In this document: one piece after another, positions 303-22,597 of the stretch
Numbering within the stretch: position 1 is the stretch's first letter
Layout of the letters: every line of letters starts with the position of its first letter
Origin: Clavulina sp. PMI_390
Taxonomy: Eukaryota > Basidiomycota > Agaricomycetes > Cantharellales > Hydnaceae
DNA length: 64,000 bases
Reading direction: 5' to 3'
NCBI GenBank assembly: GCA_015039315.1
Contig: WIDE01000100.1
Location: 21,937-85,936 of the forward strand
Position numbers and translations under genes: made by a program
The notes under the pieces: generated by a model
What the model was told of the DNA's origin: nothing
Seen by the model: the letters and a program-made list of their open reading frames with translations, nothing else
Databases searched by the model: none

Positions 303-2975
303 TCATGCCCACTGTGCAACTCCAAGCAACTCGTAGAGCCCTTGATCGGTACTTTGAGCGAGCCCTACCCTATTAAATTCCTCATCGAGACGTGCTAGCA
401 CAGCATCTGAAATGGGCCGCCCTTCTGGATTCTGTGACCACATTTCCTCCACCAGAGTCAAGAGGCAGGCTTCGAGGTCAGGGATTTTTGAGAAGTAGGT
501 CTCAGCGGCCGAGTGAATAGGTCGCTCCCCTCGGTTGATTCGTGCCATTGCGTCGTAATCCCAGCGACCAGCAAAGGGTGTTGTCAGAGTGATCAGAGAG
601 AAAATTGTCATCCCCATGCTGAACACATCACTGGCTGCGGTGGTACGGAACTCGTTGGTGGAGGCACTGGTTAGCTCTGGCGCTAGGTATCGGAGCCGGC
701 CACCCTCTCGAAGACCAGTGGCCGTTCGCGTCACCTCATGACGGATGCGGCTCAGGCCAAAGTCACAAACTATTGCATCTTCGTTCTCATCGACGAGGAC
801 GTTTTCCTAGTTGTAGACGAGCCGCTTTGTTAGTGGTAGTGGAATACAGATAAAGGAATTTGGCGAGGTACTGGATGAATGTCACCGTGGATCACGGGTG
901 GGTTCCGACCGTGCATATATGCGATTGCTTCAACCACACCTCCAAGCTGATCATGAATGAGATGAGATTATGGATGAACGGATAATGAGAGCGAATACGA
1001 ACAATTTTCCTAGCAACCGCAAGAAGATCGTCTCTCTCAGATGACACAGCACTCTTCATGAACTGAAGGGAAGAGGCGCTCTGATACCGAGAAGACAATT
1101 TTGAGTATTTATTAGATATAAAGGGAGTGACAGCCATCAGTGAGTCCTCATGATGAAAGACACCAAGAAGGGGTAAGATATTCGTATGCTTTAGCAGACA
1201 GTGCGTAAGCACCTCACGGCGCGCAGCCTAGCAGATCGACATCAGTATCACACGTCGCCCAAGAACAGCGACGTACACTGAGCGAGTTTCCAACATTGCT
1301 ATTAATTCTTCTGGTTGCCAGCATTTTATCTCCTTTGCGCGACATGTAGACAGTTGCCTCCCCCCCACCTCCAAGACTTTGATCCCAAGCAACCTCAACA
1401 CCGGTAATCAAAAGCTTGGAAGGAAGCTCCCCAGCCTGGGAAGATAGATCTTGAATGAGCCTAATGGTACTACTGTCCATGTTATGTGCATAATCATTCT
1501 GAGAGAAATGTGTCAGTGGCCCTTCATGGTAGGAAGACGTGCATGGGGCTAGTCACCACGAGAATATCCAGTAATTCAACAGCTGGTTGACCTTTTAGGT
1601 TACACAGTATTTTGTGATGAACCTTGATTCTTGCAAGACTCCATAACATCCTGGAACGTATCGCTCGTTGGCTAGGAGTAAAATTCTGCAACAGGATAGA
1701 GGGCTATCTCCAAAACAATGAGTGAGTTTATCACCAAACACGGTGCAAGTTACTTACAACGAGAGGATAAGAATTTTTCAAGGCGTTAACATAATCAGTC
1801 TTCACTAGAAGTTGCACGATGTCTCCGTGCGTTGTAACGCATATGATCTGTTTACCGTTTCCACAAGATGCTAGAATGTTGTCGACACCAGGGATTAGAC
1901 ATGCAGCCAAGCATCGAATTTGGTCGGGGACAGGGGTTTCATAGATGTAAATTTGCGCCGTACTAGTGACTATCGCAACGGTGCTAGGAGAAGGAGAGCA
2001 TATGGATCGCGGGAGACTCGGTTCTTGGTCACTGTCTTGAGGTACTTGAACCGGTACACATTGCGTTTTTGCGCCTGCAAAAGGCTCCTGGCCGCGGTCC
2101 AGCAATCAGTACTGATAGATATGTCTAAGATGTTAAATTTCGTACGTTCATGAATTTGCTTGCTATCACGTCAGAGGTTGCGACCACATAGTGAGTCGAA
2201 CTCATGATAAATGAAGTTTTCCCATCAAACACGCCCCATTCTGTAACCCAGATCAGGTTCCCACCCAGTAATCGTTTTGGAACGCAAGCATAGCCGGTCT
2301 GATTACCTCGGAAGCGTTGGTGAAAATGTTGGATAATGACAATTATATCCTCGGCCGCATTAGCGACAATATCAGGAAGAGAACTTGAATGCAGGCCCAA
2401 GGGAAGCACCACTGGAACTATAAATCCACCAGTTAGTGTGCATTTGACGATTTTCTCATATAAGTATAATGCGAGGGTGGATGGCGAGAGCCACTTCCAA
2501 AACCCCACCAGGCTATCAGCGTCGTACGAAATGAATAGTGGCGCTTGGTGCTCCCATTGATCTCGGTCACTATCTAGCTGGCATATTCGGATATTAAGGT
2601 AGACTGCGGGAGGGTCAGCTAAAGCAAAATGTTGACAATAGCAAACATAGCTCACTCCGAATAGCCAGATATCGATTCTCGGGTTCGTAGATTGCGGCGT
2701 CAATTCGAAGGTCTTGGGCCCAAGTCGGCTGAATGACCCTGGGAGGCCGAGACTCTTGAAAGATCACGAGCCTGAGCCTTCCATCATCTACATGCACCAG
2801 CGTTCCATCGGTCGCAATGGGAGGAACCTAACCCGGTACCGGCGTTGAGATCTAAGTAGATCCCGAAAGTAAACTGGGTACGTACAGACTCCTCGTCAGT
2901 TGGGAGCGGGATCCCAGCATCCTTCAGGTTTCCGAGATGTGTGATCTCGAACGGTAACCCCTCAAGATCCGCCAT
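303..2975 (-). CDS. Clathrin-propeller/kinase fusion protein, copy A (possibly damaged)
   Basis: Nine predicted exons: 2975-2886, 2827-2656, 2618-2146, 2087-1758 (or 2111-1758), 1685-1557, 1498-1277, 1227-1003, 946-872 and 806-303, about 739 codons. Residues 1 to about 370 resemble the clathrin heavy chain N-terminal propeller: the opening LPFEITHLGNLKDAGI, then IDAAIYEPENRYLAIR and VGFWKWLSPSTLALY, where clathrin has FWKWIS at the same place. After a short helical linker (LKGQPAVELLDILV) comes a kinase domain with glycine loop LGGGGEATVY, beta3 LATRR (Arg in the Lys slot), alpha-C REVL, catalytic loop IHGDIHPENVL, DFG and APE-like APELTS. Exon 4 has an in-frame TGA at its second codon if the conserved 354-nt exon is used; an alternative acceptor 24 nt further in avoids it. 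Copies B and C have the same exon plan. Function unknown; a trafficking pseudokinase is inference. Confidence 0.72.
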
Positions 2976-3706
2976 CGGAGGCTTCTGATGTTCAAATATG
3001 CGCGCGAAGACAAGCGATTGGGGATGAAGGATGGGGGTTCAACTGGTGGATGCTGGCGTGGACAAGTTCACGGAAGCAACCAGTACGCCATGAGGCTACT
3101 GCGTGGATACCTGTTTGTTTCCTTGAAATTGACGCCGTCAGTAATTCGGGCCATAGAAATGAGTGCCGAGGCAGTGCTACTTGTGCGATGATGCTATTAT
3201 AATATTTTCATGCATTGTTAAATAGACCATAGGGTCAAAATGAAAAGAACGATGCTTTGTGATCCTCATCATCGAGCGTCACTGGAGGCCACTCAGACTC
3301 AACCGTACTGCAACATCCACTCAGTAGATCAGAATCATCAGCCATTGGGATGCAAACTCATGAACGATAACATAGATTGGATGATGATCTTGAAGCGACG
3401 ACGACACCAAAGACAAAGACAAACGATGAAACGAACATCCTATGCGGCTCATCATCACAGGTCCAATTGGGGCAGCTTGAACAAGGAAGACACACATGGA
3501 TAAGATCAGTGAGATTGGGTATCGTATCCGCACAAAACAACGAACGTCAGGATGAGCTGGCTGAAATGGGACAGGCATGATTGCAATGCAGTGAGAAAAC
3601 AGGAAGAAATGGAACTCGTTGATATTGGGTCCGAACTGAGATAGGGGCGACGTAAGAGAAACATGGCGGATTTCTGACGGTAGCCGACAGGGAAGACATC
3701 ATCATC
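2976..3706. other. Intergenic, promoter side of copy A and 3' flank of the Rab7 gene
   Basis: About 730 bp between the start codon of kinase copy A and the stop codon of the Rab7 gene. It contains only short overlapping open frames rich in Asp/His/Arg from low-complexity GA/TC sequence around 3360-3440. I see no conserved protein signature, RNA gene or repeat here. Confidence 0.6.
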
Positions 3707-4756
3707 TTAGCAGTTGCACCCATAGTTCTGGTTCGTCGGGTCCGTGATCCTTATCGGATCAGGGTAGTCAGCGTACCTAGACATCATGAAGTGAAGCGCT
3801 AATCAGCATCTAGCTCACTTGATAACAGTATCATTAGGGTCATACAGTTCTGTCTCCTCCTCCTGGCTCATCGCGTTCTTGGCAATGGTTTGGAATGCCT
3901 GCTCGACGTTGATCGCCTCCTTCGCCGAAGTCTCAAAGTACGGGATGTTACCCTTTGACTGGCACCAAGTCATCGCGCGCTTCTGGGACACCTATCAACC
4001 AATAATCGCAGCAAACCGATGCGTGTTAGTGACACAGCATCTCAGGGGGTCGCAGTCTGCAGAGGCAGAGACGAACCTGTCGCTTGTTCTCCTCCACATC
4101 AATCTTGTTCCCCAAGACGACAAAGGGGAAGTTCTCGGGGTCATGCGGGCTTGCTTGGATGAGGAACTCGTCACGCCAGCTGTCGAGGGTCTCGAAGCTC
4201 TTGGAGCTGTTCACGTCATAGACAAGGACGCAGCAATCGGCGCCACGATAGAAGGCAACACCCAGAGATTGGAAACGCTCCTGACCGGCAGTGTCCCATA
4301 GCTACATGTAGTGAAAAGAAACCGGGACGAAGATGAGCATTGGGGCGGCCAACGAGGTGTGGGGTGCGGTGGAGAGACGCGCACCTGCATCGTCACGGTC
4401 TTATCGTCAACCAATACCTCCTTTGTTAGGCTAGAGAAAGTACACGATAAGCGACAATTAGACAACAGAATCTAATAGACTCACAAGTCTGCCCCAATAG
4501 TTGCCTTGTACTGATTGCTGAACCTCTTGTTGACATATTGGTTCATTAGGGATGTCTTGCCGACACTACGTCACACAGAAGACGAGATTAGCGATTCAAG
4601 TAGGCCGAGATAGACCCCTCATATGAATAGTATGCACCCGCTATCGCCCAGAATGATGACCTGAAAAGAGTTGAAATAGGAGTCAGCACCGGTGAATCTG
4701 TCAAGCCCAACTCGAGTCGTGCGACATCCTCCTACCTTGAGCAGAACACGACCCAT
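3707..4756 (-). CDS. YPT7: Rab7/Ypt7 small GTPase
   Basis: Spliced product reads MGRVLLK, then [20 protein letters not shown] (P-loop and switch-I lead-in), KATIGADFLTKEV (effector region), [20 protein letters not shown] (DTAGQ switch II), [10 protein letters not shown] (NKID guanine motif), [14 protein letters not shown] (SAK motif) and a C-terminal CNC, the double-geranylgeranyl signal. The IDV and the acidic [12 protein letters not shown] segment before the tail fit the Rab7/Ypt7 group. These proteins direct fusion of late endosomes and autophagosomes with the vacuole through HOPS. The gene has several short introns; exon 1 is only seven codons (4756-4736) and an intron splits the P-loop glycine codon. 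Its start lies 257 bp from the divergent ATG16 start. The identification is secure; Rab7 rather than another endosomal Rab rests on motif recall. Confidence 0.93.
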
Positions 4757-5013
4757 AGTGATAGCAAGCTGGACCTAGAGAACAATGCAATGAGTCGGTC
4801 ATGGTTCCGAGTGGCCGCCCAGGGTGAGGACTGACGGTGAGGGTGGTGGCGACGGAGGCAGTGGGGAGTGTGTGTGGAACGATATGCGTGACTTATGTTC
4901 GCCGAGCCATCCGGAAGTTGCCGCTGCTCCCGCCCTCACGAAACACGCCCTCACTTCCCCCGTTCAACCCTCGGGTGTCACAGTTTTGAGCTTGACCACG
5001 ATACCACCTCGCA
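4757..5013. promoter_or_regulatory. Shared divergent promoter region, Rab7 / ATG16
   Basis: The Rab7 and ATG16 start codons are separated by 257 bp and face away from each other, so both promoters must sit here (unless transcripts start within a neighbour's UTR). No TATA box is obvious. The left half is G-rich on the plus strand (repeated GGTGG/GGCGG units near 4838-4865) and the right half is C-rich with pyrimidine runs, as often seen upstream of fungal start codons. Confidence 0.5.
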
Positions 5014-6188
5014 ATGGCGAGTGCATCGTGGCAAGAGGAGCTTCGGTAAATCCTACCGACGGTCAAGAAAGCTGCAAGAGTCATTCCGTCCTAATGTGAT
5101 TTCTTCAATCTGTTCCCTCAGGCTCAGGCTAGTCGAACGGAATCGTAAAGAATCGGCCTATGCTGGGATCATTGAGCAATGTCTGTATCCGCTTTCGACC
5201 TCGTTAGACTGTAGTTCTTACTTCTAAGCCGGTGTTTGACGCCTAGACCGACGACTTGCCCAGCAAACTCGCCTACTAAAGGAGCGGAATCAGGCCTTGC
5301 TTCGAGCGGTTGGTTCAAGTGGTGGGAACAAGAACCTCAGCGCAAGCACGGCGAGCAATCCTGGTGCTTCCGAGTGAGTCATATGTCTGCGTTCTTTCTC
5401 CAAATGCTCACACTCATGCACCGCACAGCAGCGCTGGTGGCCCCTCAGAGTACATCTCATCACTATTATCGGAGATCTCCTCATTACGAGATGAAGTCGC
5501 CGCCGTCTACCGAACTCAGAGTCAGAACGCGCAACGACTATTGTCGATGACAGAAACTCTCAGGGACAAGGAGGAAATGCTGAGAATAGAGTCGGACCAG
5601 CTTCGCAAGGCTCGGGAGGAACTCGCCACTCTCAAGCGCAAGATCGAGCAGCATGATGAGCTCATGGCAGAGAAAGACCGTGGCATTCAGGTACTGTTGA
5701 TCCTTCCAACCTGCTCAGGAATGCCGCATACGTCCCACTAAACCTATCCACTCCCCCTCTCAAATCAGGTCCTACACGACGAGATCCAGTCTCTTAATCT
5801 AGAACTGAATCAGGTCACCATCCGCAACGAAGCACTCAAGGTCGACAACGCATCACTCCTCCAACGCTGGATCGACCACCAAAACGACGCTGCGGCGAAG
5901 ATGAACAGCGCCAACTCATTCTACGAGGACATGCGCAAGAAAGGCTGGAACGACGCGCACGGAGGCAGGCCTTCTCACGGTCGTCGTAATTCTCTAGGAT
6001 CATCTTCAGAAGTCTCCGCCGGCTCTGAAGTCGAGACGATGAGCGAAGCCGAGCCTGACGATGACGAGAAGTTTGGTGGTGGTGGGCGGTTGAACGGCGA
6101 TAAAACAGAGGTCCAGGATCCTTTTCTCAGCCTCCAGAATCAGCCCCCGCAGCGAAACAGCGGGCCCCGTCTGAATCCGAATGGCTGA
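5014..6188 (+). CDS. ATG16: Autophagy protein ATG16 homologue
   Basis: Five exons are predicted: 5014-5045, 5122-5180, 5247-5373, 5429-5690 and 5769-6188, all phase-compatible. The product opens MASASWQEELRLRLVERNRK, then ESAYAGIIEQYRRLAQQTRL: the Trp, RL.ERN and II..Y..L pattern of the ATG5-binding helix. A coiled coil follows (SLLSEISSLRDEVAAVYRTQ to ELATLKRKIEQHDELMAEKD) and then the ATG16-typical LLQRWIDHQNDAAAKMN. A polar tail of about 90 residues ends the protein. ATG16 binds ATG5-ATG12 and places Atg8 lipidation on the phagophore membrane. There is no WD40 domain, as usual in fungi. The start is chosen because it lines up with the family N-terminus. The 3' portion was duplicated to about 9895-10335. 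Confidence 0.88.
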
Positions 6189-6795
6189 TGGTAGATGATG
6201 ATGGACTAGATGTGGTGTCCGATTGGGGTACTGGATCGGAAATTGTCGTCGTTGATGATGATGATGTTGCTCCTGAGGCATAGATTCTTCCTCCTTTTTC
6301 CTCCTCCCCCACTTCGAGTTGGAGTAAAGCTATTTTTCACAGACTCTGCTCGATATCCAATTAATAATACTTCATTATAATTATCAAGCTGTAGCGTGGC
6401 GGTACTGGGGACAAATTCCCTTATCGTCTCCTCCACATCGAACGAAGCTCTTGCCAAGATATGGCTCAGGGACACCATGTGTTCGCTTTACCCAAAGTGA
6501 GAGACTCGCTCAGCATAGACGTCATGACCATATTGCTCTCCAGGTCTCGTAGGTATGAGAGAGTAGGTGACAAGTAGATTGACATGACAAGAGCATGAAT
6601 TTCATACGATGCCACGCCCAACCAAGCAAGGAAGGGCTGTGTCGCCGCCACTGGGTCTGCCATTGCCCCTCATCACCCATCACCCATCAACCGCACCGAA
6701 TCCCTATCTCTCCCCCCAACAACCCGCTCCATCCCGAATCGGCCGTAACTCCGGTCCACAATTCGTCCTGGAGCCAGAGTGTTGGAAGAACGTCG
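6189..6795. other. Intergenic, ATG16 3' flank and copy B promoter
   Basis: About 600 bp. The first half (to about 6400) has a diverged counterpart at 10240-10430 downstream of the ATG16 fragment, so it belongs to the duplicated unit. The second half is rich in CCCCAT/CACC pyrimidine-type sequence just before the start of copy B. No other gene is evident. Confidence 0.6.
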
Positions 6796-9600
6796 ATGTT
6801 CGAGCCCCAATCACCCAATCTTGATGACCAGCTACCATATGAAGTGACCCACCTCGGGAACATCACTGCTGCCGGTATACTGATTCCGGAGCAAAACGAA
6901 ACGGTGAGATACCATCTCGTTGTTATCGTCTTAGATGTTGAGTGTCCTAATTTGTCGATCATCAAAGCCTCCTGCAATAGCCTATGACGGAACACTTGTT
7001 CATGTCGGCGAGGACCGAGCCCTAAGGATTGTGGTATTCAGACCTGATCAACCCCCAAATTTCATCGAGCCAAGCTGGTCCGAAGCTACTAATATCGATG
7101 CTGCGATCTATTCTCCTGTCCATCGATATTTGGCAACAAGAGGTGAGTTCCGTCCTTTGCGGCTTGATTATTTGCTAACTGAGGTTTCAGCGGCGAGCAC
7201 AATACGAGTATACCAACTGGCCATTGATCGTGGTCTTTGGGAACAAGAAACACCACTACTGCTTGGTGAACACATTGACGAAAACACAATCTGGTTCTGG
7301 AAGTGGCTGTCGCCCACCCGGCTAGTATTCACCACGCCATCTGATCTACTCAAGTGGGACATCTCTCCCAAGGGAGGGTATCCCCAGTCTGCTCCAGTGC
7401 TGCTATTCCCACTTTCTCTCTGTCGGTTCCCCAAGGTGGTCGACGTCGTCTCAAGTCTTGATCAGAATCAGTTCGTCATCTGCATCAAGCCCGACCATCT
7501 CCCTCAGTTTATAAACCGTCGCTGTGTTGTGTGCATCTATATTGATAATGGACAACACATACTCTCCAGGATCGCTGCAGATATCCCGTCAATCATGGAA
7601 TTGGGAGGGTTCTTGGCTTCGTATGCCCTTGTCACTAATCCTGTGCAATTCTTGGAAGATCGCAGGACATCATCTCAGGTGCTGAACTGGTGCACGGGCA
7701 TATCATCAGAAAGGCTCGAGAGAATCGCTTATTTACTTGACTTTTAGATGCAAGTGGTCGATCTCGCAACACGAAGAACTGTACCGGCTCCGGGGTTTCT
7801 TTCCGGCAAAGATTCCGGAAACACTTCTCGAGCAAATATATCACCCTGCCCTCGTGTTGTAGCACACATAGTTGCTTCACAAAGCGGCCCCATCCCGCCC
7901 GAGGTCCATGCATACTACCTCTCCCCCAAGTCAAACAAATGGGAATGTTTGATGGCCTGCCCTATACCTGGGATCGACGAACTGGCAGCCTGTTATTCTA
8001 TTGGCGACCATTTCCTCTGCATCTCATCGAGTGGTGATGTTGTTGACATCCGCCTCAACACTGAGAACTTCCTGGAGCTGCAAGCTACCTTTCCCAATCT
8101 CGTAAGTATATTGCCTGGATTTAGCACAGCTCGCTTGTTTTGGTTCCTGAACTTGATACATCCGTCCTCCGCTCCAGCCCCCCGATTTGTTAACTTCATT
8201 TACAGACTGCGAGCTCGCGCAACGACTGGCGATCATTGGTTCAGAGCCTGACTCCCGGAAACTGCTGCTTGGCCTGAGAGGACAAGGGGCAGGCAGAGTT
8301 CTTGATCACCTGATCGTATGCTATGCCACCTTACCATCTCTTTTTTTTCAGAGGTTGATAGTTATCACCTAGGGAAACCGGGATCGATTATCCCATCTCG
8401 ATGATTCAAAACTTCGGCTCATTCAAGACATAGCATCCACATCAGAAGAGTTACCTTCATCGCTGTGGGTCTTGGGAAAAGAGGTCGAAATCGATATATT
8501 TGGAGACTTGGGACATGGAGGAGAAGCGAGTGTTTATCGCTGTGAATGGAATACGAACGGACAAGTCCGGGCCATGGCTGCAAGGAGGGCAAAATTCTCG
8601 CCTCAATACACCAAGACAGTACGTCTATCGAAAGTCCTGCAAAGTCTTCTACTCACAAGCTTCTGGACATGTCAAGATCGCCTACCGTGAAGCCCTTACC
8701 CATTGCCTACTCTCCCACGAGAATCTCCTGCCCTTAGCGGGCGTCTTTGTCCATCGTGGCTCATTTACGAGTCTCATTCCTCTTGTTACGAACCGATACT
8801 CGAGTCAGCCATGCAATTCCTCTTTATTCTCAAGCGCTTCATCGCTGCACTATCTAAAGAGCACTGCTGAGGCGAGCAGTGATGATCTCCTTGTCATAAG
8901 TCTAAAAATTGTACGTCGGCGGCCCCTAGCTCACTATGATCCATCTGCGATCGCTATCACTCACTGCATTTCCTTCTGCTTCTATTAGCTACAGGGAGTG
9001 GCGAGAGGGGTAGAGTATATGCACAGCTTCAGCTCCCCGGTGATTCATGGGGATCTTCATCCCGTAGGCATTACTTCTTTTTCAGCTTTCTCGGACCCAA
9101 TGCTCAATCTTGCTCTCAATACTCAACAGGAAAACATTCTCATCACAGAGGACGGGAATGCACTGATCTGTGATTTTGGGCTTAGCCGTATCCACCATGA
9201 AGTCACGAGAACTGCCACAAATATCCAACAAGGAGGGCATCGCCGTTACGCTGCACCAGAACTAATAAACTCGCCGGATGATAGGTTCCGCACTTCAAAA
9301 GCCAGCGACATCTATAGCTTGGGAATGACATTCTACTCGCTCGTCACTCTCGACCTTCCCTTTCGTGACTATTGGGACTACGACGCGATGTCTCGCATCC
9401 TCCAGGGCGAGCGCCCCCCTCGTCCCGTAGCTATGAGCCTCTCTGCCTTCCCTGATATCGAAGCGCTGTTATGGGATATGATTGAGCATATGTGGGCACC
9501 CAAACCACCCAGCCGACCATCCGCCGCTGCTGTTCTGGAGCGTTGCGAACGAGCGGTTGCCACTCTTCAGCTGACAGGGCTCCCTGAGTTTTTGTCTTAG
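6796..9600 (+). CDS. Clathrin-propeller/kinase fusion protein, copy B
   Basis: Exons 6796-6903, 6968-7142, 7191-7678, 7748-8101, 8178-8315, 8373-8618, 8677-8910, 8989-9063 and 9130-9600 give 762 residues with every junction in phase. Residues 1 to about 375 match the clathrin heavy chain propeller in order: LPYEVTHLGNITAAGI, NIDAAIYSPVHRYLATR, STIRVYQLAIDRGLWE, WFWKWLSPTRLVFTT, and near the end FLCISSSGDVVDIRLNTEN followed by ELAQRLAIIGSEPD, which corresponds to the last blade and first linker helices of clathrin. The kinase part has LGHGGEASVY, MAARR at beta3 (Arg for Lys), YREALTHCLL (alpha-C Glu), VIHGDLHPENILI, CDFGLSRI and APEL, and ends 15 residues beyond a normal kinase C-lobe. No signal peptide or membrane segment. 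Best preserved copy. Activity as a kinase is doubtful; role unknown. Confidence 0.82.
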
Positions 9601-9894
9601 GTTTTGTGACAGGTGATGTATCATCTGGGGGATTTTCGGCTCGACCTGTGTCGTCCGACCCAGCTTTGTTGGAAGAATTGGCTCCGGATACTTGGAACGG
9701 AAAAACTATCAATTTATTAGGCGATGACCACGCTCTGAATGCTTCATGTTAAGTGTGGGGATGTAATATCCAGCAGATGCAAATCACGAAGACTAATGAT
9801 ATGTCCCCTACAGACCAAATTTGCAAAGTCATGACTTCTCTCTGCCTCCCCTCTCGCTTCCATCCAACTGCGTCTATGACATTGCTAGCGACTC
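9601..9894. other. Short intergenic gap after copy B
   Basis: About 290 bp holding the 3' flank of copy B. No gene or repeat is evident before the ATG16-derived fragment begins. Confidence 0.5.
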
Positions 9895-10335
9895 TTATGA
9901 ACAAACCACTCCTTCAATTCTGTACTCGACCTCAACGATGCCACAGCGAAGATGAACAGTACCATCTCATCCTAATAAGACATGCTGCACAAGAAGGGCT
10001 GGAATGACGGGCACGGATGCAAGCCTTCTCACGGTCGCCGAGATTCTCTTGGATCATTTTCAGAAGTCTCCGCCGGCTTTGAAGTCGAGACGATGAGCGA
10101 AGCCGAACCTGACGATGACAAGAAGTTTGGCGGTGGGCGGTTGAACGGCGACAAAAAAGAGGTCCAGGATCCTTTTCTCAGCCTCCAGAATCAGCCCCCA
10201 CAGCGAAATAGCGGGCCCCGTCTGGATCTGAATGGCTGATGGTAGATGAGGATGGGCTAGATGCGGTGTCCGATTGGGGTGCTGGATCGGGAATCGTCGT
10301 CATTGATGATGATGTTGCTCCCGAGGCATAGATTC
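9895..10335 (+). pseudogene. ATG16 3'-end fragment (duplication remnant)
   Basis: This stretch is a diverged copy of the last exon and 3' flank of the ATG16 gene at 5830-6300. The frame 9982-10239 stays open and encodes KKGWNDGHGCKPSHGRRDSL and DPFLSLQNQPPQRNSGPRLD, nearly identical to the ATG16 tail, but everything upstream of the RW.DHQN region is missing or scrambled: the cognate of LLQRWIDHQ around 9900-9945 is out of frame. It has no start consensus and no coiled coil, so it is a non-functional remnant. It lies just upstream of copy C in the same relation as ATG16 to copy B. Confidence 0.85.
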
Positions 10336-10770
10336 TTGCCTTTTCCGCTTTCCTTTTATAGTATTGCGACTACAACGCATTTGCTCGACATTCAACTAAT
10401 ACTATATTGCTACCTTTGAGCCGCTATATAATGAAACCAAGGGAAATTTGCCCGGCTGTGCTCTTCCATATCACCCTTTCTTTCTCCCTCAGATGCGAAT
10501 CAGGGAAAGCATGTTCTAACAGCTTGGAAAATGCGGCAATTTGATGGTTGCTGATTGGCCTATTTCAATAATGAAGGGACCCGTAACACCAGGACGGCCA
10601 AGGGCCAGATATCGAGAGTAGTGGCGTGACAGTTACGACCTGTGTGTGGCACACCTTTTCCACGTGCATAAGCGCTCAGAGGTACTTCTAGATCTTTTCT
10701 CTCTCTTTCCATCATTCGAACTATCTATATCGTTAGTTTGACCTCTCCGAATAGTGGCTCGATCCCAGCA
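10336..10770. other. Intergenic, promoter of copy C
   Basis: About 435 bp. The first 100 bp continue the similarity to the region downstream of ATG16 (for example a TGCTCGACATTCAACTAATA-type stretch matching 6347-6370). The rest has no gene signature. Confidence 0.5.
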
Positions 10771-13564
10771 ATGTCCACTGTCGAAGATGATATGCCATTT
10801 GAGGTGACCCACCTCGGAAACCTCAATTCCGCTGGCTTCAGTGCTCCAGATTACAATAAACTGGTGATATTTGCCTACTTCTTCGTCTACCTGCGCTTAG
10901 TGACTCTTTAACTCACCTCAAACTTTGTATTACACAGGTCCGTTCGATAAGCCTTGATGGAACACTGATCGATTTAGACGAGAATCACAAACTAAGGATA
11001 ACCATATTCAGACCCAATCAGCCCCCGAGGATCATTATGCCGTTCTGGGCTAGAGATCTCGAATTTAGGGATGTACTTTATTCTCCCAACAGGCAATATC
11101 TCGCCATCATGCAATACCTCACCATAAACGGTGAGCAGTGTTCCCCTGCGTTGAGCATCCGCTGATCGACCAGCTAGCCGGGGTTTTTATTGCATTTTAT
11201 CAGTTGGATGTTGCTCAAGAGCTATGGGATATACAAGCTCCAACCTTTCTTTATGAGCTTGACTGCGAAAGCCCGACCTACTTCTGGAAGTGGTTGTCAC
11301 CCACAACTTTAGTATTCACCAACATAGACAGACTCGTGAAGTGCAACGTCTCTGAGAAAAGAGCATACCCCGTGGTTAATTTCACTGGCTCTGATTTCAA
11401 GTTTCACCTGATCAGCGATGTCCTCTCTAACGCTGATGAAACTGAATTTGTTCTCCTCCTCAGAGGCTGTTATGTTTCTGACGCATTGGATCCCACTGGT
11501 CTCTTTGTATTCTTCTCACGCAATCAGGAATGCCACAGGCATGATTATTTCCGTCACACAGATACTGCGTCTTTGATGGAATTAGGAAGCCAATCGCCCA
11601 GTTGTGCCTTGGTTGTTAATTCCATGCCGGTCCCAATTCCTCCCTGCGAACCTGATCATGTGATTGAGTATCATCGGTATACCGTGTAAGCGGAATGTCT
11701 CACGACCCTTACTCTGGTAGATGGACGCGATCGAACTTGTGACGCAAAAACTTCTGTCGGATTCGACACGCTTTTCGGGTGCAGAAAATGGAAATGTCTC
11801 GCGGGCGATTTCATCCCCCTTTCCACGCGTTGTTGCGCACATTATTGCCACTTCCCGTAGCTCGACCCCACCCGAAGTTCATGCATATTACTTGCTGCCT
11901 CGAGAAAACACTTGGCGCTGTCTCATGGCTGTTCCTTTACCTGCTCTGGAAGAACTTGTCGCGTGTTATGCGATCAATAATGATTTCTTGTGCATTTCGT
12001 CGAACGGTAAACTTCTCAACATCCGTATGAAACCCTGGAAGCTTTCGGAGCTGGTGGACACTTTCCCCAACGTTGTATGTATACATCCAAGAGCTATGGT
12101 ATCTCTCTCTTATCTAATATCCATTTTCCTCCTCCAGCCTTGCGCCTTATGGACGAAATTTACCGAATCTGAGTTCAAAGAACGTTTGAGGCGAACGGTT
12201 TCGGACCCTAAGTATTCCTCATTCACAAGAACGCTGCTTCAGCTGAGAGGTCAATCGGCTGCAAAAGTTCTTGAATATCTGGCTGTACGCTACTCTCTCT
12301 TACCTCCGCAACCTTTCCCCTCACTTCAAATTTCTATTCTCTGCTGTAGAATGATCGTCATCTTTTCGGCGTCAATTCCATCGGCCCTTCTGAACTGCGA
12401 TTAATCCAAGACATATCATCTGCTTCAGAACAGCTACCTCTGTCGCTGTGGTTATCAAGCAGAGAGGTTAGAGTTGACATGTTTGGGGATCTAGGACATG
12501 GAGGGGAGGCCGGCGTTTATCATTGTGAGTGGTATACCAGGGGGCAGATCTACCCCATGGCAACAAGAAAGACTAAACTTTCAGCCCAATACACAAAAGC
12601 GGTGTGTTCACTCAGCGCTAGGACAGAAATCTTAATACCTTGCTCACATGTCACTACAACCTAGCACGCAGTTCGCGAAGCTCTCACACACTATCTTCTC
12701 TCGCACAAGAATCTTCTGCCATTCTGCGGGGCTTTCGTTCATCGGGACTCATTCATGACTCTTATACCTCTAGTCGAAAACAAATACTCTGACCAGTCGT
12801 GTACCACCTCTTTAACGCCAAGCGCTTCATCCCTCCACTTTCTGCGAAGCGTCGCTGAGGAGGGCGAACACGACTTGATGTCTAGCACCCTTAAAATTGT
12901 GCGTCTTTCCCAATCCTACGCTCCTCTATTGCACTATATTTAGCTGCTTACTGTGCTTTACCCTATCAGCTTCGTGGAGCAGCAAAAGGGGTCGCATATA
13001 TGCACGGCCGCAGCCCCCCCGTAATTCACGGAGACCTTCATCCCGTACGCGCCATTCTTCTTGAGTCCCGTTGCAGACGCAGCTCAACCCGTCTCCTATC
13101 AGGAGAATCTGCTCGTAAACGAGGATGGTGAAACATTGATTTGTGATTTCGGCCTCAGTCGTATCCACCACGAAGTCACAAGGACTGCTACTCATATCCA
13201 GGAGGGAGGCCATCGCCGCTATATTGCGCCGGAACTTGCAAGCTCCCCTGATGACAGGTTCCGCACTTCAAAAGCCAGCGATATCTACAGCTTAGGATTG
13301 ACGTTCTACTCTCTCGTCACGCTGAACATCCCTTTCCAGGACTATTGGGACTTTGATGCGATGTCTCGTATCCGCCAGGGCGAGCGGCCCCCTCGCCCGA
13401 CAGCTAGCAGTCTCTCCGCCTCTCCTAACGTCGAGGCTCTGCTATGGAATCTAATTGAGGATATGTGGGCGCACAATCCAGCCAGCCGACCTTCTCCCGC
13501 TGGAGTTGTCGAGCGTATTGGACGAGCAATTGCCACTGTTCAGGCCACTGATAGGACTCCTTGA
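10771..13564 (+). CDS. Clathrin-propeller/kinase fusion protein, copy C
   Basis: Exons 10771-10863, 10938-11130, 11178-11683, 11721-12074, 12138-12284, 12350-12601, 12665-12898, 12970-13044 and 13103-13564 give 771 residues. Exons 4, 7 and 8 have exactly the same lengths as in copy B (354, 234 and 75 nt). The propeller opens MPFEVTHLGNLNSAGFSAPD and carries YFWKWLSPTTLVFTN; the linker reads LLQLRGQSAAKVLEYLAV. The kinase has LGHGGEAGVY, MATRK at beta3 (Arg in the Lys slot), VREALTHYLL, VIHGDLHPENLLV, CDFGLSRI and APELAS. The donor of exon 3 (GTGTAA) is weak; a stronger GTAAGC two bases later would break the frame. The blade after VLYSPNRQYLAI is more diverged than in B. No obvious inactivating stop. 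Arose with the ATG16 fragment by segmental duplication. Confidence 0.78.
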
Positions 13565-13815: not shown

Positions 13816-15636
13816 CTAATTCCATGTCTCGTCCCACCCCAAATTCGCAAAGTCATAGCTTCCCTTCGTCTCCCCTTCTCGCACCCACCCCAGCGCATCC
13901 ATGGCATTACCAGCAACCCTCACAAACAGCGTCCCATCTAATCGTCCTGCCCCAGCAAGCCTCGTCTCACCAAATGTCCCAATGCGGCGAGTGCCATAAA
14001 CTTGCGCGTAATGCTGCAGCGCGCGAATCGTCTTGACGAGGTGCTCATCCGGGTGATGCATGACGCTCTGGATGATATTGAGCCATGGATTATCATATGC
14101 CACTAGCTGAGACGTGTTTGACTCTGAGGAGGGGCGACTGAGAGCGTCTGCTGATGGCGTAGGTCGGGCTCCTGGGGGTGATGGAGTAGCGGTGACAGAC
14201 TCCATGAACTCTGCAATGTGCAGCGAAGGGCGACCACGCGAAATCCATAGCAAGAGAATGCTGGAGAAGTGGCCACGCAAAAGCGCACTCTGGGATGAGG
14301 GCGAGAGGAACGCCGCAAGGGAGGGGAGGAATATTGAGGAAGTCAGGATGTGCATTCTAGGAGAGTAGTAGTCGTTGGAGCATGGGATCAGCAATGAAGC
14401 ACTCGTAGATGGTGACAGTTTGCCATGGAGCACGCACAGGAAGAAATCGGAGCGAAAGCGATGGCCTGGCCGCCATCCGCAGACGCCAAAAATGATTGTT
14501 GAGAGCCACTGGAGCTCCTCGATTTTCGACCGTAGCGTCTTTACATCGCCATCCACAGGAACAACCCATTGACCGGCATACTCTCGAATGATGGCTCCGA
14601 CAGTGTCTACAGTCTCATCTAAAGGATGCTGCGAGCTGTCGAGAGAACGAATCTTCTGTGGTGTTAGTCGATTATCTTGCAACATGTCCGCCACGATGTC
14701 AAATGAGTGTAGGCTAGTCCTCTGCTCAGATTGTGACGAAGCACTGAAGAAATCCGGAGGGAATAACGGGGCCACTCTCAAGTCCGAAACACAAGTGAGA
14801 GCGAGTCCTATTATGATCTCAACAATGCACGATCAATGTACGGCCAAGATGTATTATAGGGGAAGAGCGATAGAATTACCTTCAGCCACCATCCCAGGAA
14901 TACCGAATTCAATATGTCCAATGTGGATCATAGGGTGCAAAGGTCCTCCATAAAATCGAGCGAGCATCATTGGTCCCGCCGCCGACGATTCCGAGGCCCC
15001 ATGATTTGCCTCGTCGCTGAAGAGGAACTCCTCGAGAGTTTTCGAGACACCGTCCGGTCGAGAGAGCTTCTCGTCGAAGAACTGTTTATACCCGTCATAG
15101 TATTGCTCACTAGGGATTCAGAGAAGAAATCAGCAATTGAGGACCCTCCACGACTAGCTGTTATGAGTGTACTTCTTGTGACCAAGATAGCTCGTCCAGT
15201 TGGCTTCTGTGTAAGACCATTAATTAGCTCAGATGTCGGTGCCTGAACTCAGATTGGTTGGCCAACCAGTTATCTTCTCTGGGGATATCAACTTCTTCCT
15301 CTGAAAGCTGGCGTGACCATCGTAGGATTTCTGAAGTCCGATCGCAGAAGCGCCAAGTGCCCAAGCAGCGAAAACATGGTGCGTCAAGTGGCTAGCGATA
15401 TTGTTTCATAGTCAGGTACGATTCCCGATCGGCCGCATCGAAGTTGCGAAATAGGCGTACTTGTGGTAACCCTGAGAGTTGAAGAATATATGAAAATTCT
15501 CGTCGTTGGAGTGAAGGAGTTCGATCAGCTTGTCCGTAGATTCCGCAGTAATTCCCGGCAAGGTGCGCGGAGTCTGGTCCCAACACTCTTGAGGACGAGA
15601 CGGCGAGGGAAATAGCGCGTCAAGATCTGGAGACAT
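13816..15636 (-). CDS. Questin-oxidase-like protein (DUF4243 family)
   Basis: The minus-strand start at 15636 opens MSPDLDALFPSPSRPQECWD. After an intron the protein continues HNHLTHHVFAAWALGASAIG, the His-rich signature of the DUF4243/AflY (questin oxidase) family. Further on come YYDGYKQFFDEKLSRPDGVS, GPMMLARFYGGPLHPMIHIG and EFGIPGMVAEG, all family landmarks, and near the end MHILTSSIFLPSLAAFLSPS followed by LLRGHFSSILLLWISRGRP. Members carry out Baeyer-Villiger-like or uncharacterised oxidations in fungal secondary metabolism, and many copies are orphan. No polyketide or other pathway genes are nearby, so the substrate is unknown. The C-terminal third (to the stop at 13816) is one long exon. 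Convergent with copy C. Stop 250 bp from copy C's stop. Confidence 0.82.
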
Positions 15637-20430: not shown

Positions 20431-22597
20431 ATGTCGGCGCCCGATCCATCGTTCATGGCATCTCACTTCGCCGGGCCTGTCCAAGCTGGAGCTTACGTGA
20501 ATAGCCTATTCGTTCGTGTCCAGTTTCTCGGTTTTACGAGTGTGACGATGCTAACAATACACCACGATTAGACTGGTATCGCCCTGATGCAACTCCAAGT
20601 GTACATCCGAAAGTACAAGGGGTAGGTGAACTTGCTTACACCTACTACCATTCTTCTGACTGACAAACCTCTTAGAGACTCTATCCTTATCCGAGGACTT
20701 GTTGCCCTATCTTGCTCGATCATGACTCTCAACACTGTGTTGACCGCCTTCCAAGCGTACTACTCGACGATTGTGCGTTTTGGTGAGTGGAATACGGTCT
20801 TTCATCAGAATCTGCGAGCTGAGCTCCGTCCCATGCAACCCCAGGCGATATCGTGGCCACATATACGCTCACTTTGCGTATGTAAAGAATCCCCTTCCTA
20901 GCTTTATAATTCAAAGTTCTTATACCAAATTTCTTGCTCTCTACGCCTTAATAGCATTCCAGATCGGTCAGTTGATCTCGATTGTCAATATTGAGAAAGT
21001 GGCTGACCCACTGTACCATGATAGGTTTGGATACAGTCAGTGATGATCCCTCCATCATGTTTGCGCCTCTCGATGAGCCTGAATGCTGAACTTACTCTCG
21101 ACAAGATCGTATTACCATCCAGCTTGATTCAATTGTTCTTTGCATGGTATGTGTAAATCCACGATACAAGATACTGGAAACCTCCGCTAAGACTTGCCAA
21201 ACAGGAGAGTGAAACGGCTGACTGGGAGAACATGGGTGCTTGCTATTGTCGCTACCAGTGTCATCTTCCAGTGGTGTAAGCTCCTCTGTCTCCGCATCTT
21301 GTTCCATCCTGACTCAACGTGTCTGACACTTCTGCAGCCGTCACAATCACTGCAATATCTAGTTCGTCTAATGCCCATCGCCAACAACAACTCGTCACCC
21401 TGACCATCAGGCTCCCTTAATAGTCGGGAACGTACACACATCAATCCAACAAGTGCTCGCTCTTACTGGGTATGTGCGGTCTTAGTAATAGTTGCACTCA
21501 TTTCTGATTGGTCGCATAGATGGGCGCTGTCGATGGCAATAGACACCCTCATCACGGTCAACCTTGTCATTTTTTTTGTGAGTCCCAATAGTCGTAGCAT
21601 TATGCCATAGTTAACCCCCTTTCCTATAGAATACCCGCAAGACTGGATACTCTGACACCGATGATTTCCTCGCTATGCTAAATCGAGGTACGCTCTTTCA
21701 GCTCTGAGGGGGCTATATACATTTTTACCCATGACACCACTCAAGTGGCGATTCAAACTGGCGTGATGATCTCGTTGTGGAACGTTACTATCATTATCTT
21801 GGAGGTAAGTACACCTATCTGCCGCGTGCGCTTGGTCGCTGATGTTGTGTTCGTGCTGCAGTCCATATACGTACGTCTCGCCCAGACTTCCGGCAGGCTG
21901 TTTCTCCTTATTATCCCCCATGCAGCCGGACTTTACTTCTCTCATCTTGATCGTCGCTTTCCCTCCGCTTTACGTGATCACATTATTATCCTCTTGTGAG
22001 CATTTGATTGTTTGTTCTTGAACTAACTTAGGCCGCTCACTGTATCGAGATTTTGTTAGTGAACTCTCGCCATGCGACGGATCATGGGAATCATTGGTCA
22101 GACGATACTCCATGGACTGCCTCAGGCACAGTCACCGCGCCTCGACGGGTATGTGATTCGTAGATTTACTGAATGGCGCAATCCTTGCTCGTTCCTGATA
22201 TGTCTCCCTTGAGGCAACAAATCCCGGTCATTCGCACATTCAAGTTACTCGTACCGTTGAACAAATTGAGCTTGATGAACGTACCGGGGTCCCCGTCCAG
22301 TCTCCTCATGGACCTAGTATCCCTCTTCCTGCTTCTACTCATCCATACGCTACTTCTCGAGCCTTTGGACCGGCCCCGTTGACGAACAGCAGAATCTCCC
22401 GCCTTGTTAACGTGGCACCTCGTGAGATCTTAGACGGTGATATCGATGAGGAGAGCGAGAGTGGAAAGACAGATTTGGAGCTTGCGGGCGACGATGTTCG
22501 GCTCAACGCTTTGGCTAACCGCAGCGTTGTCGCGGTGCCGCAATACGACATATACGATGGGTCGCAACCGACTGACGCAAAGGGTCGGACAATGTAA
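20431..22597 (+). CDS. Seven-TM-like membrane protein, DUF6534 type
   Basis: The chosen start opens MSAPDPSFMASHFAGPVQAG, then after an intron TGIALMQLQVYIRKYKG and DSILIRGLVALSCSIMTLNT. Later exons carry QLFFAWRVKRLTGRTWVLAI and DFLAML..RVAIQTGVMISL, then YVITLLSSLNSRHA at the end of the membrane part and a hydrophilic tail of about 110 residues. This pattern (QxY, a D near TM2, QxFFAxR, a TG in TM6 and LNxR at the last TM) fits the large DUF6534 family of basidiomycete integral membrane proteins. Function is unknown in the family. The segment around 20960-21050 does not splice cleanly by eye, so the middle exons are uncertain and the copy could be damaged. Confidence 0.62.

Follow-up and report, generated by a model that had tools for sequence, protein, structure and literature searches.

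A clathrin-like propeller joined to a kinase domain in seven predicted genes of the fungus Clavulina sp. PMI_390

Introduction

AAK1 and GAK combine a kinase with clathrin biology in one polypeptide; both contain binding motifs for the clathrin terminal domain. Here we describe genes of Clavulina sp. PMI_390 (Cantharellales, Agaricomycetes) that share this combination but differ in carrying a propeller that resembles the terminal domain itself, followed by a predicted kinase domain. Seven such fusion paralogs, A to G, are present in the genome, and three of the seven (A, B and C) lie in the window, by which we mean the whole 64,000-nucleotide stretch of DNA analysed (positions 21,937 to 85,936 of contig WIDE01000100.1, here C3). 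The reading that we favor, with a probability of roughly 0.55, is that the 5′ exons encoding the propeller of a clathrin heavy chain were joined once to the catalytic exons of a TKL-like kinase and copied to at least seven genes, and that the propeller may be a docking head whose altered groove directs the kinase, or pseudokinase, toward a new set of short-motif partners.

The fusion propellers share with the clathrin terminal domain a sequence profile, a motif of the FWKW(I/L)S type (FFKW in G), collinearity to the last blade, and intron positions. Unlike the clathrin heavy chain, which reaches 1,675 amino acids in the Protein Data Bank (PDB), the six complete fusion models are about 725–763 amino acids long (F, cut by a run of Ns, is excluded), no leg repeats were found in them, the peptide-box residues are replaced, and a kinase follows the propeller. 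FslK kinases (PMC3937382) are likewise Agaricomycete, multicopy and TKL-like in their domain; that report finds just 16 of 241 members with additional domains and describes the ATP-binding residues as conserved, whereas the fusions have a clathrin-type propeller and an arginine in place of the beta3 lysine. A literature search of titles and abstract openings returned no clathrin propeller–kinase fusion, in agreement with the initial annotation of this DNA, whose author knew of no described family with such an architecture.

Results

Seven loci carry a propeller followed by a kinase

The B propeller, used as a query against the 39.4 Mb assembly (301 contigs), has 22 matches that resolve into seven loci. 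D, A, B and C are on contig C3 (119,601 bases), where D lies outside the window, on its left side; contig C263 carries E, F and G. Gene B is organized as follows.

6796-9600, plus strand: gene B, 762 amino acids in nine exons, with an open spliced frame and GT-AG introns of 48-78 nucleotides
6796-6903, 6968-7142, 7191-7678, 7748-8101, 8178-8315, 8373-8618, 8677-8910, 8989-9063, 9130-9600, plus strand: exons of gene B, stop included
6796-8101, plus strand: clathrin-heavy-chain-like propeller of B (exons 1-4), from PDB searches, hhalign and Foldseek
8178-8315, plus strand: linker exon of B (exon 5), shared by all seven paralogs, clathrin homology undetectable
8316-8372, plus strand: phase-0 intron of B at the propeller/kinase junction
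8373-9600, plus strand: kinase part of B (exons 6-9), Pfam Pkinase at 3e-31 over residues 465-743

A spliced aligner reproduces the same exon set for B. The initial annotation had recognized A, B and C as three genes with clathrin-type motifs and a kinase domain beyond them; all three are present where they had been placed, the quoted motifs are there, and the open spliced models continue from the propeller into the kinase.

The propeller is related to the clathrin terminal domain

With the single B propeller as query, phmmer returned 16 PDB matches at E<1, every one a clathrin heavy chain, the best having an E value of only 0.054. A profile of the seven paralog propellers gave 18 matches at E<1, again all clathrin, the best of which (5.1e-9) is chain 9ex5, a yeast clathrin terminal domain. 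Comparison by hhalign of the seven-propeller alignment with two clathrins, one from this genome and one bovine, gave a probability of 94.8% (E 4.8e-8), with 265 collinear columns that cover residues 56–366 of B; the one control compared, a single WD40-repeat kinase sequence (P0010), gave 0.16%. The outcome of this profile-profile check, which had been proposed along with the original claim, is favorable to it. Of the approximately 370 residues first assigned to a clathrin propeller, homology by profile is thus found for 56–366, and the clathrin likeness of residues 1–55 consists of motifs and the first intron. The extension of the match through ELAQRLAI into the linker did not hold up, as hhalign of exon 5 against the clathrin linker gave 1.5%, aligned only the last blade, and detected no clathrin homology in the linker.

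A Pfam scan of B residues 1–421 found no family at E≤1, and so no propeller family, and when Clathrin_propel was searched across the genome all three matches were in the true clathrin gene. Because Pfam misses B and Clathrin_propel reaches only the true clathrin gene, we interpret the B domain as a diverged clathrin propeller: N-terminal propeller homology to the clathrin heavy chain is present, weak by single sequence and below the reach of Pfam. No leg of clathrin repeats was found; Pfam matches eight families in the 762 residues of B, none of them clathrin and all in the kinase part.

Structure prediction, also proposed as a check, sustained the assignment in part. The partial AlphaFold models of B are low in confidence (pLDDT 54 for exons 2–3, and 63); with the exons 2–3 model 39 of 42 Foldseek matches at E≤0.001 are clathrin, and the exon-4 model, considered in the Discussion, did not yield such a match. 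Covering parts of the propeller, these models leave a seven-bladed fold putative. Taking the comparisons together, we regard derivation of the propeller from the clathrin heavy chain terminal domain as supported.

Introns are shared with the clathrin gene and at the junction

The genome's own clathrin heavy chain gene is on contig C173, and its first three introns fall within the propeller part, in phase 0 between ISFQ and TLTL, in phase 1 at the A between ALR and SRQ, and in phase 0 between QGAK and LHIVE. These were compared with the fusion introns on an alignment built without knowledge of intron positions. The first is in the same column and phase in all seven fusions, and the second in six of them, that of C being shifted by six columns at an insertion and in the same phase. 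For the third, six of the seven have a same-phase intron 7–15 columns away, and the intron of F is modelled 19 columns off in phase 2; intron 3 of F and G varies with the query used. One extra intron of the fusions lies close to where the propeller ends.

The junction intron, at the exit from the linker, is in phase 0 and in the same column in all seven paralogs. Read by eye, the next intron of the clathrin gene is in phase 0 after AANSPR, and unfused kinases (e.g. L039, L044, L046, L055, L059 and L061) have a putative phase-0-compatible acceptor 15–17 residues before LRLLQD, compared with 13 in B. Exon shuffling is suggested, because the junction intron is in phase 0 and the unfused kinases have one near by.

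The kinase domains form one clade and lack the beta3 lysine

Exons 6–9 of B encode a predicted protein kinase that is closest in the PDB to TNNI3K and RIPK2. Of the features of the protein kinase superfamily, the Pfam domain, the catalytic aspartate of HxD, and DFG are present, with HGD and DFG in all seven fusions. FunK1 (PF17667) is absent from the eight Pfam families matched in B at E≤1, although HMMER filters drop weak matches.

The beta3 (VAIK) lysine was not found in any fusion, the position being arginine in all seven. For the fusions its register is taken from the family alignment, because phmmer on B alone places the beta3 stretch two residues off; in the relative L044, the arginine falls on the TNNI3K beta3 lysine. 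Among the 21 sampled unfused relatives (loci within L039–L061) this column is arginine in 17 and lysine in one, a frameshifted model, and it is unassigned in three doubtful models. The family is large, with at least 148 exon-level matches in the genome, fusions included, from the 126 of 372 candidates that were scored. This TKL-like family is possibly a big set of atypical or dead kinases, to judge from the arginine that 17 of the 21 sampled unfused members have at the beta3 lysine.

For the kinase tree, the best 30 loci were fetched, nine with fusion genes were set aside, and the other 21 were aligned with the seven fusions. The fusion kinases form one clade relative to these 21 (ultrafast bootstrap 100), and within a B-C-E-F-G clade C is joined by the three C263 copies (support 83).

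The peptide-binding groove is changed and the propeller diverges faster

Residues of three peptide boxes were taken from the yeast structure paper PMC11543927. As had been suggested from the first reading of the sequence, the clathrin-box groove is altered. Gln89 is kept only in G, with arginine in A, B, D, E and F, and asparagine, beside an insertion, in C; Lys96 is kept in none of the seven (aspartate in six, alanine in one), nor is Lys98, which is replaced by aspartate, glycine, glutamate or asparagine. The W-box and arrestin-box glutamines are likewise absent from all seven, in a region where the alignment is weak. With these anchors of the groove lost, the standard adaptors of clathrin are unlikely to be bound in a simple way. 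The endosomal or vesicle function proposed earlier follows from ancestry and finds no support in these comparisons.

Tree-based estimates of omega, the ratio of nonsynonymous to synonymous change, are 0.429 for the propeller and 0.194 for the kinase across the seven copies, and 0.677 and 0.236 respectively for E-F-G; pairwise values agree where computable. The propeller exceeds the kinase in relative amino-acid change in all five pairs tested (p from 0.006 to 5e-8), of which F-G, A-D and B-C are independent.

Gene models and public annotations

The two other fusion genes in the window are as follows.

303-2975, minus strand: gene A, 739 amino acids in nine exons, modelled by spliced alignment from the B query, free of frameshifts
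2975-2886, 2827-2656, 2603-2146, 2084-1758, 1703-1557, 1498-1277, 1227-1003, 946-872, 806-303, minus strand: exons of gene A in transcription order, stop included
10771-13564, plus strand: gene C, 763 amino acids in nine exons, with an open spliced frame and GT-AG introns
10771-10863, 10938-11130, 11178-11660, 11721-12074, 12138-12284, 12350-12601, 12665-12898, 12970-13044, 13103-13564, plus strand: exons of gene C, stop included

The acceptor of exon 4 in gene A is uncertain; its last exon alone matches Pfam Pkinase at 3e-14. Spliced-alignment models of the seven loci contain no frameshifts and no internal stops, although the aligner penalises stops. Raw models of D, E and G had one to three spurious, query-dependent end exons; once these were trimmed every paralog has nine exons, with approximate ends for D, E and G. 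The kinase end of F (L029, C263 near 90138) enters a stretch of Ns, at which the model was cut.

Public gene models are divided on whether the propeller and kinase belong to one gene. For copy C, the partial model P0029 (292 amino acids) equals residues 229–520 of our model, starting at the end of exon 3 and reaching into exon 7, and so crosses the junction. For copy B, P0028 (279 amino acids) is identical to our model for 257 residues and agrees on introns 1 and 2, and the rest of it reads into intron 3. Conservation across seven paralogs favors a single predicted gene.

In a protein database, residues 1–425 of B had no match at E≤0.001, and the seven-row propeller profile matched two entries, both this genome's own copies on C3 (B and C). 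Absence elsewhere means little, since D to G were missed too, which suggests that the database covers this genome incompletely. Full-length B gave 27 kinase matches, of which the four with an organism name were from three bacteria and Malassezia cuniculi; this search says little about kinase relatives, because the search words were drawn from the first 500 residues.

Genomic setting of the copies

Positions 5854-6289 are repeated, at 87%, at 9907-10337 upstream of copy C, and hold the last part of an ATG16 gene, whose Pfam ATG16 match is at 5280-6185; the repeat is a trace of tandem duplication. To the right of C is a questin-oxidase-like gene (13816-14832, minus strand), and 13870-15000 has a 68% match beside copy E on C263. 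Together with the grouping of the C263 copies with C in the kinase tree, this match points to a segmental copy. An exon of a Ras-family GTPase gene (4026-4301, minus strand) lies between A and B. Positions 3-193, beside A, and L027:738-932, near D, are a repeated fragment (77%) that we take to resemble the end of a prohibitin gene. Directly downstream of D is a kinase fragment (G000:C3:16622-16996, minus strand) with 53% identity to the B kinase.

Discussion

Clathrin ancestry, the shared introns, a single clade among the sampled kinases, intact model frames, and selection are supported by the sequence comparisons. The simplest route to the fusion would be joining through phase-0 introns by exon shuffling. 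The design of the clathrin terminal domain, a peptide held in a groove, may have been retained as a docking module with changed pockets, and the attached kinase, or pseudokinase scaffold, would then be brought to new and diversifying short-motif partners. No coat building is expected, because the clathrin leg is lacking. The output may be phosphorylation of the docked partner or, if replacement of the beta3 lysine by arginine eliminates catalysis, scaffold signalling. Peptide binding, new partners and signalling output are inferred.

Several observations weigh against this interpretation. The fusion is known from genome sequence and gene models, and P0028 stops in intron 3, short of the kinase. 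The clathrin side of the breakpoint is unproved, because homology of the linker to clathrin was not detected. No Foldseek match of the exon-4 model reaches E≤0.001, spliceosome propellers occupy its two top rows, and VIA-align, also with a partial model, ranks other propellers nearly level with clathrin. The faster change of the propeller could reflect relaxed constraint instead of new specificity, and several pairs are close to saturation at synonymous sites, F-G being the least so.

A more ambitious version, which is conceivable but which we consider doubtful, is that these are a new type of cytosolic signalling protein in which a clathrin terminal domain freed from coats acts as a fast-diverging peptide reader attached to a kinase that lacks its lysine; the fungus would thereby own a set of paralogs that read motifs, perhaps in self/non-self or symbiont recognition. 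Alternatively, the proteins could regulate ordinary clathrin traffic, the propeller binding the usual adaptors in competition with clathrin and so bringing the kinase to coated pits or endosomes. The ancestry of the propeller is consistent with this, and AAK1 and GAK are kinases that act at clathrin coats. With the clathrin-box, W-box and arrestin-box residues changed relative to those given in PMC11543927, we consider it unlikely. Quite unlikely, too, is a sensor of self/non-self or viruses in which the clathrin-like head is a decoy for an attacker of clathrin and the kinase relays the signal; the two clusters of copies, the faster propeller and the many-member kinase family would fit, but omega is below 1 on average (averages only, with no site test).

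That propeller and kinase are separate genes joined artificially by our splicing models, as the end of P0028 within intron 3 might indicate, is improbable, given that P0029 spans the junction, that a kinase follows the propeller at all seven loci, and that the junction intron keeps its column and phase in seven open-frame paralogs, several of them near synonymous saturation. Decay into functionless copies could account for their number, the faster propeller and the missing beta3 lysine, but is very improbable with seven models free of frameshifts and internal stops (the stop penalty of the aligner notwithstanding) and with omega at 0.43 for the propeller and 0.19 for the kinase. Convergence of a generic WD40-type propeller on clathrin, to which the VIA-align ranking and the spliceosome propellers in the exon-4 search lend something, is barely credible when the PDB sequence matches are to clathrin only, introns are shared with the clathrin gene, and clathrin dominates the Foldseek matches of exons 2–3.

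If the reading of a single clathrin propeller–kinase fusion with an altered docking groove is correct, a clathrin terminal domain would have been taken out of coats and put to use for recognition on a signalling enzyme, and the seven genes would let the fusion of two domains by way of introns be traced. A testable question also arises about a large family of fungal kinases: most of its sampled members have arginine at the position of the lysine that holds ATP.

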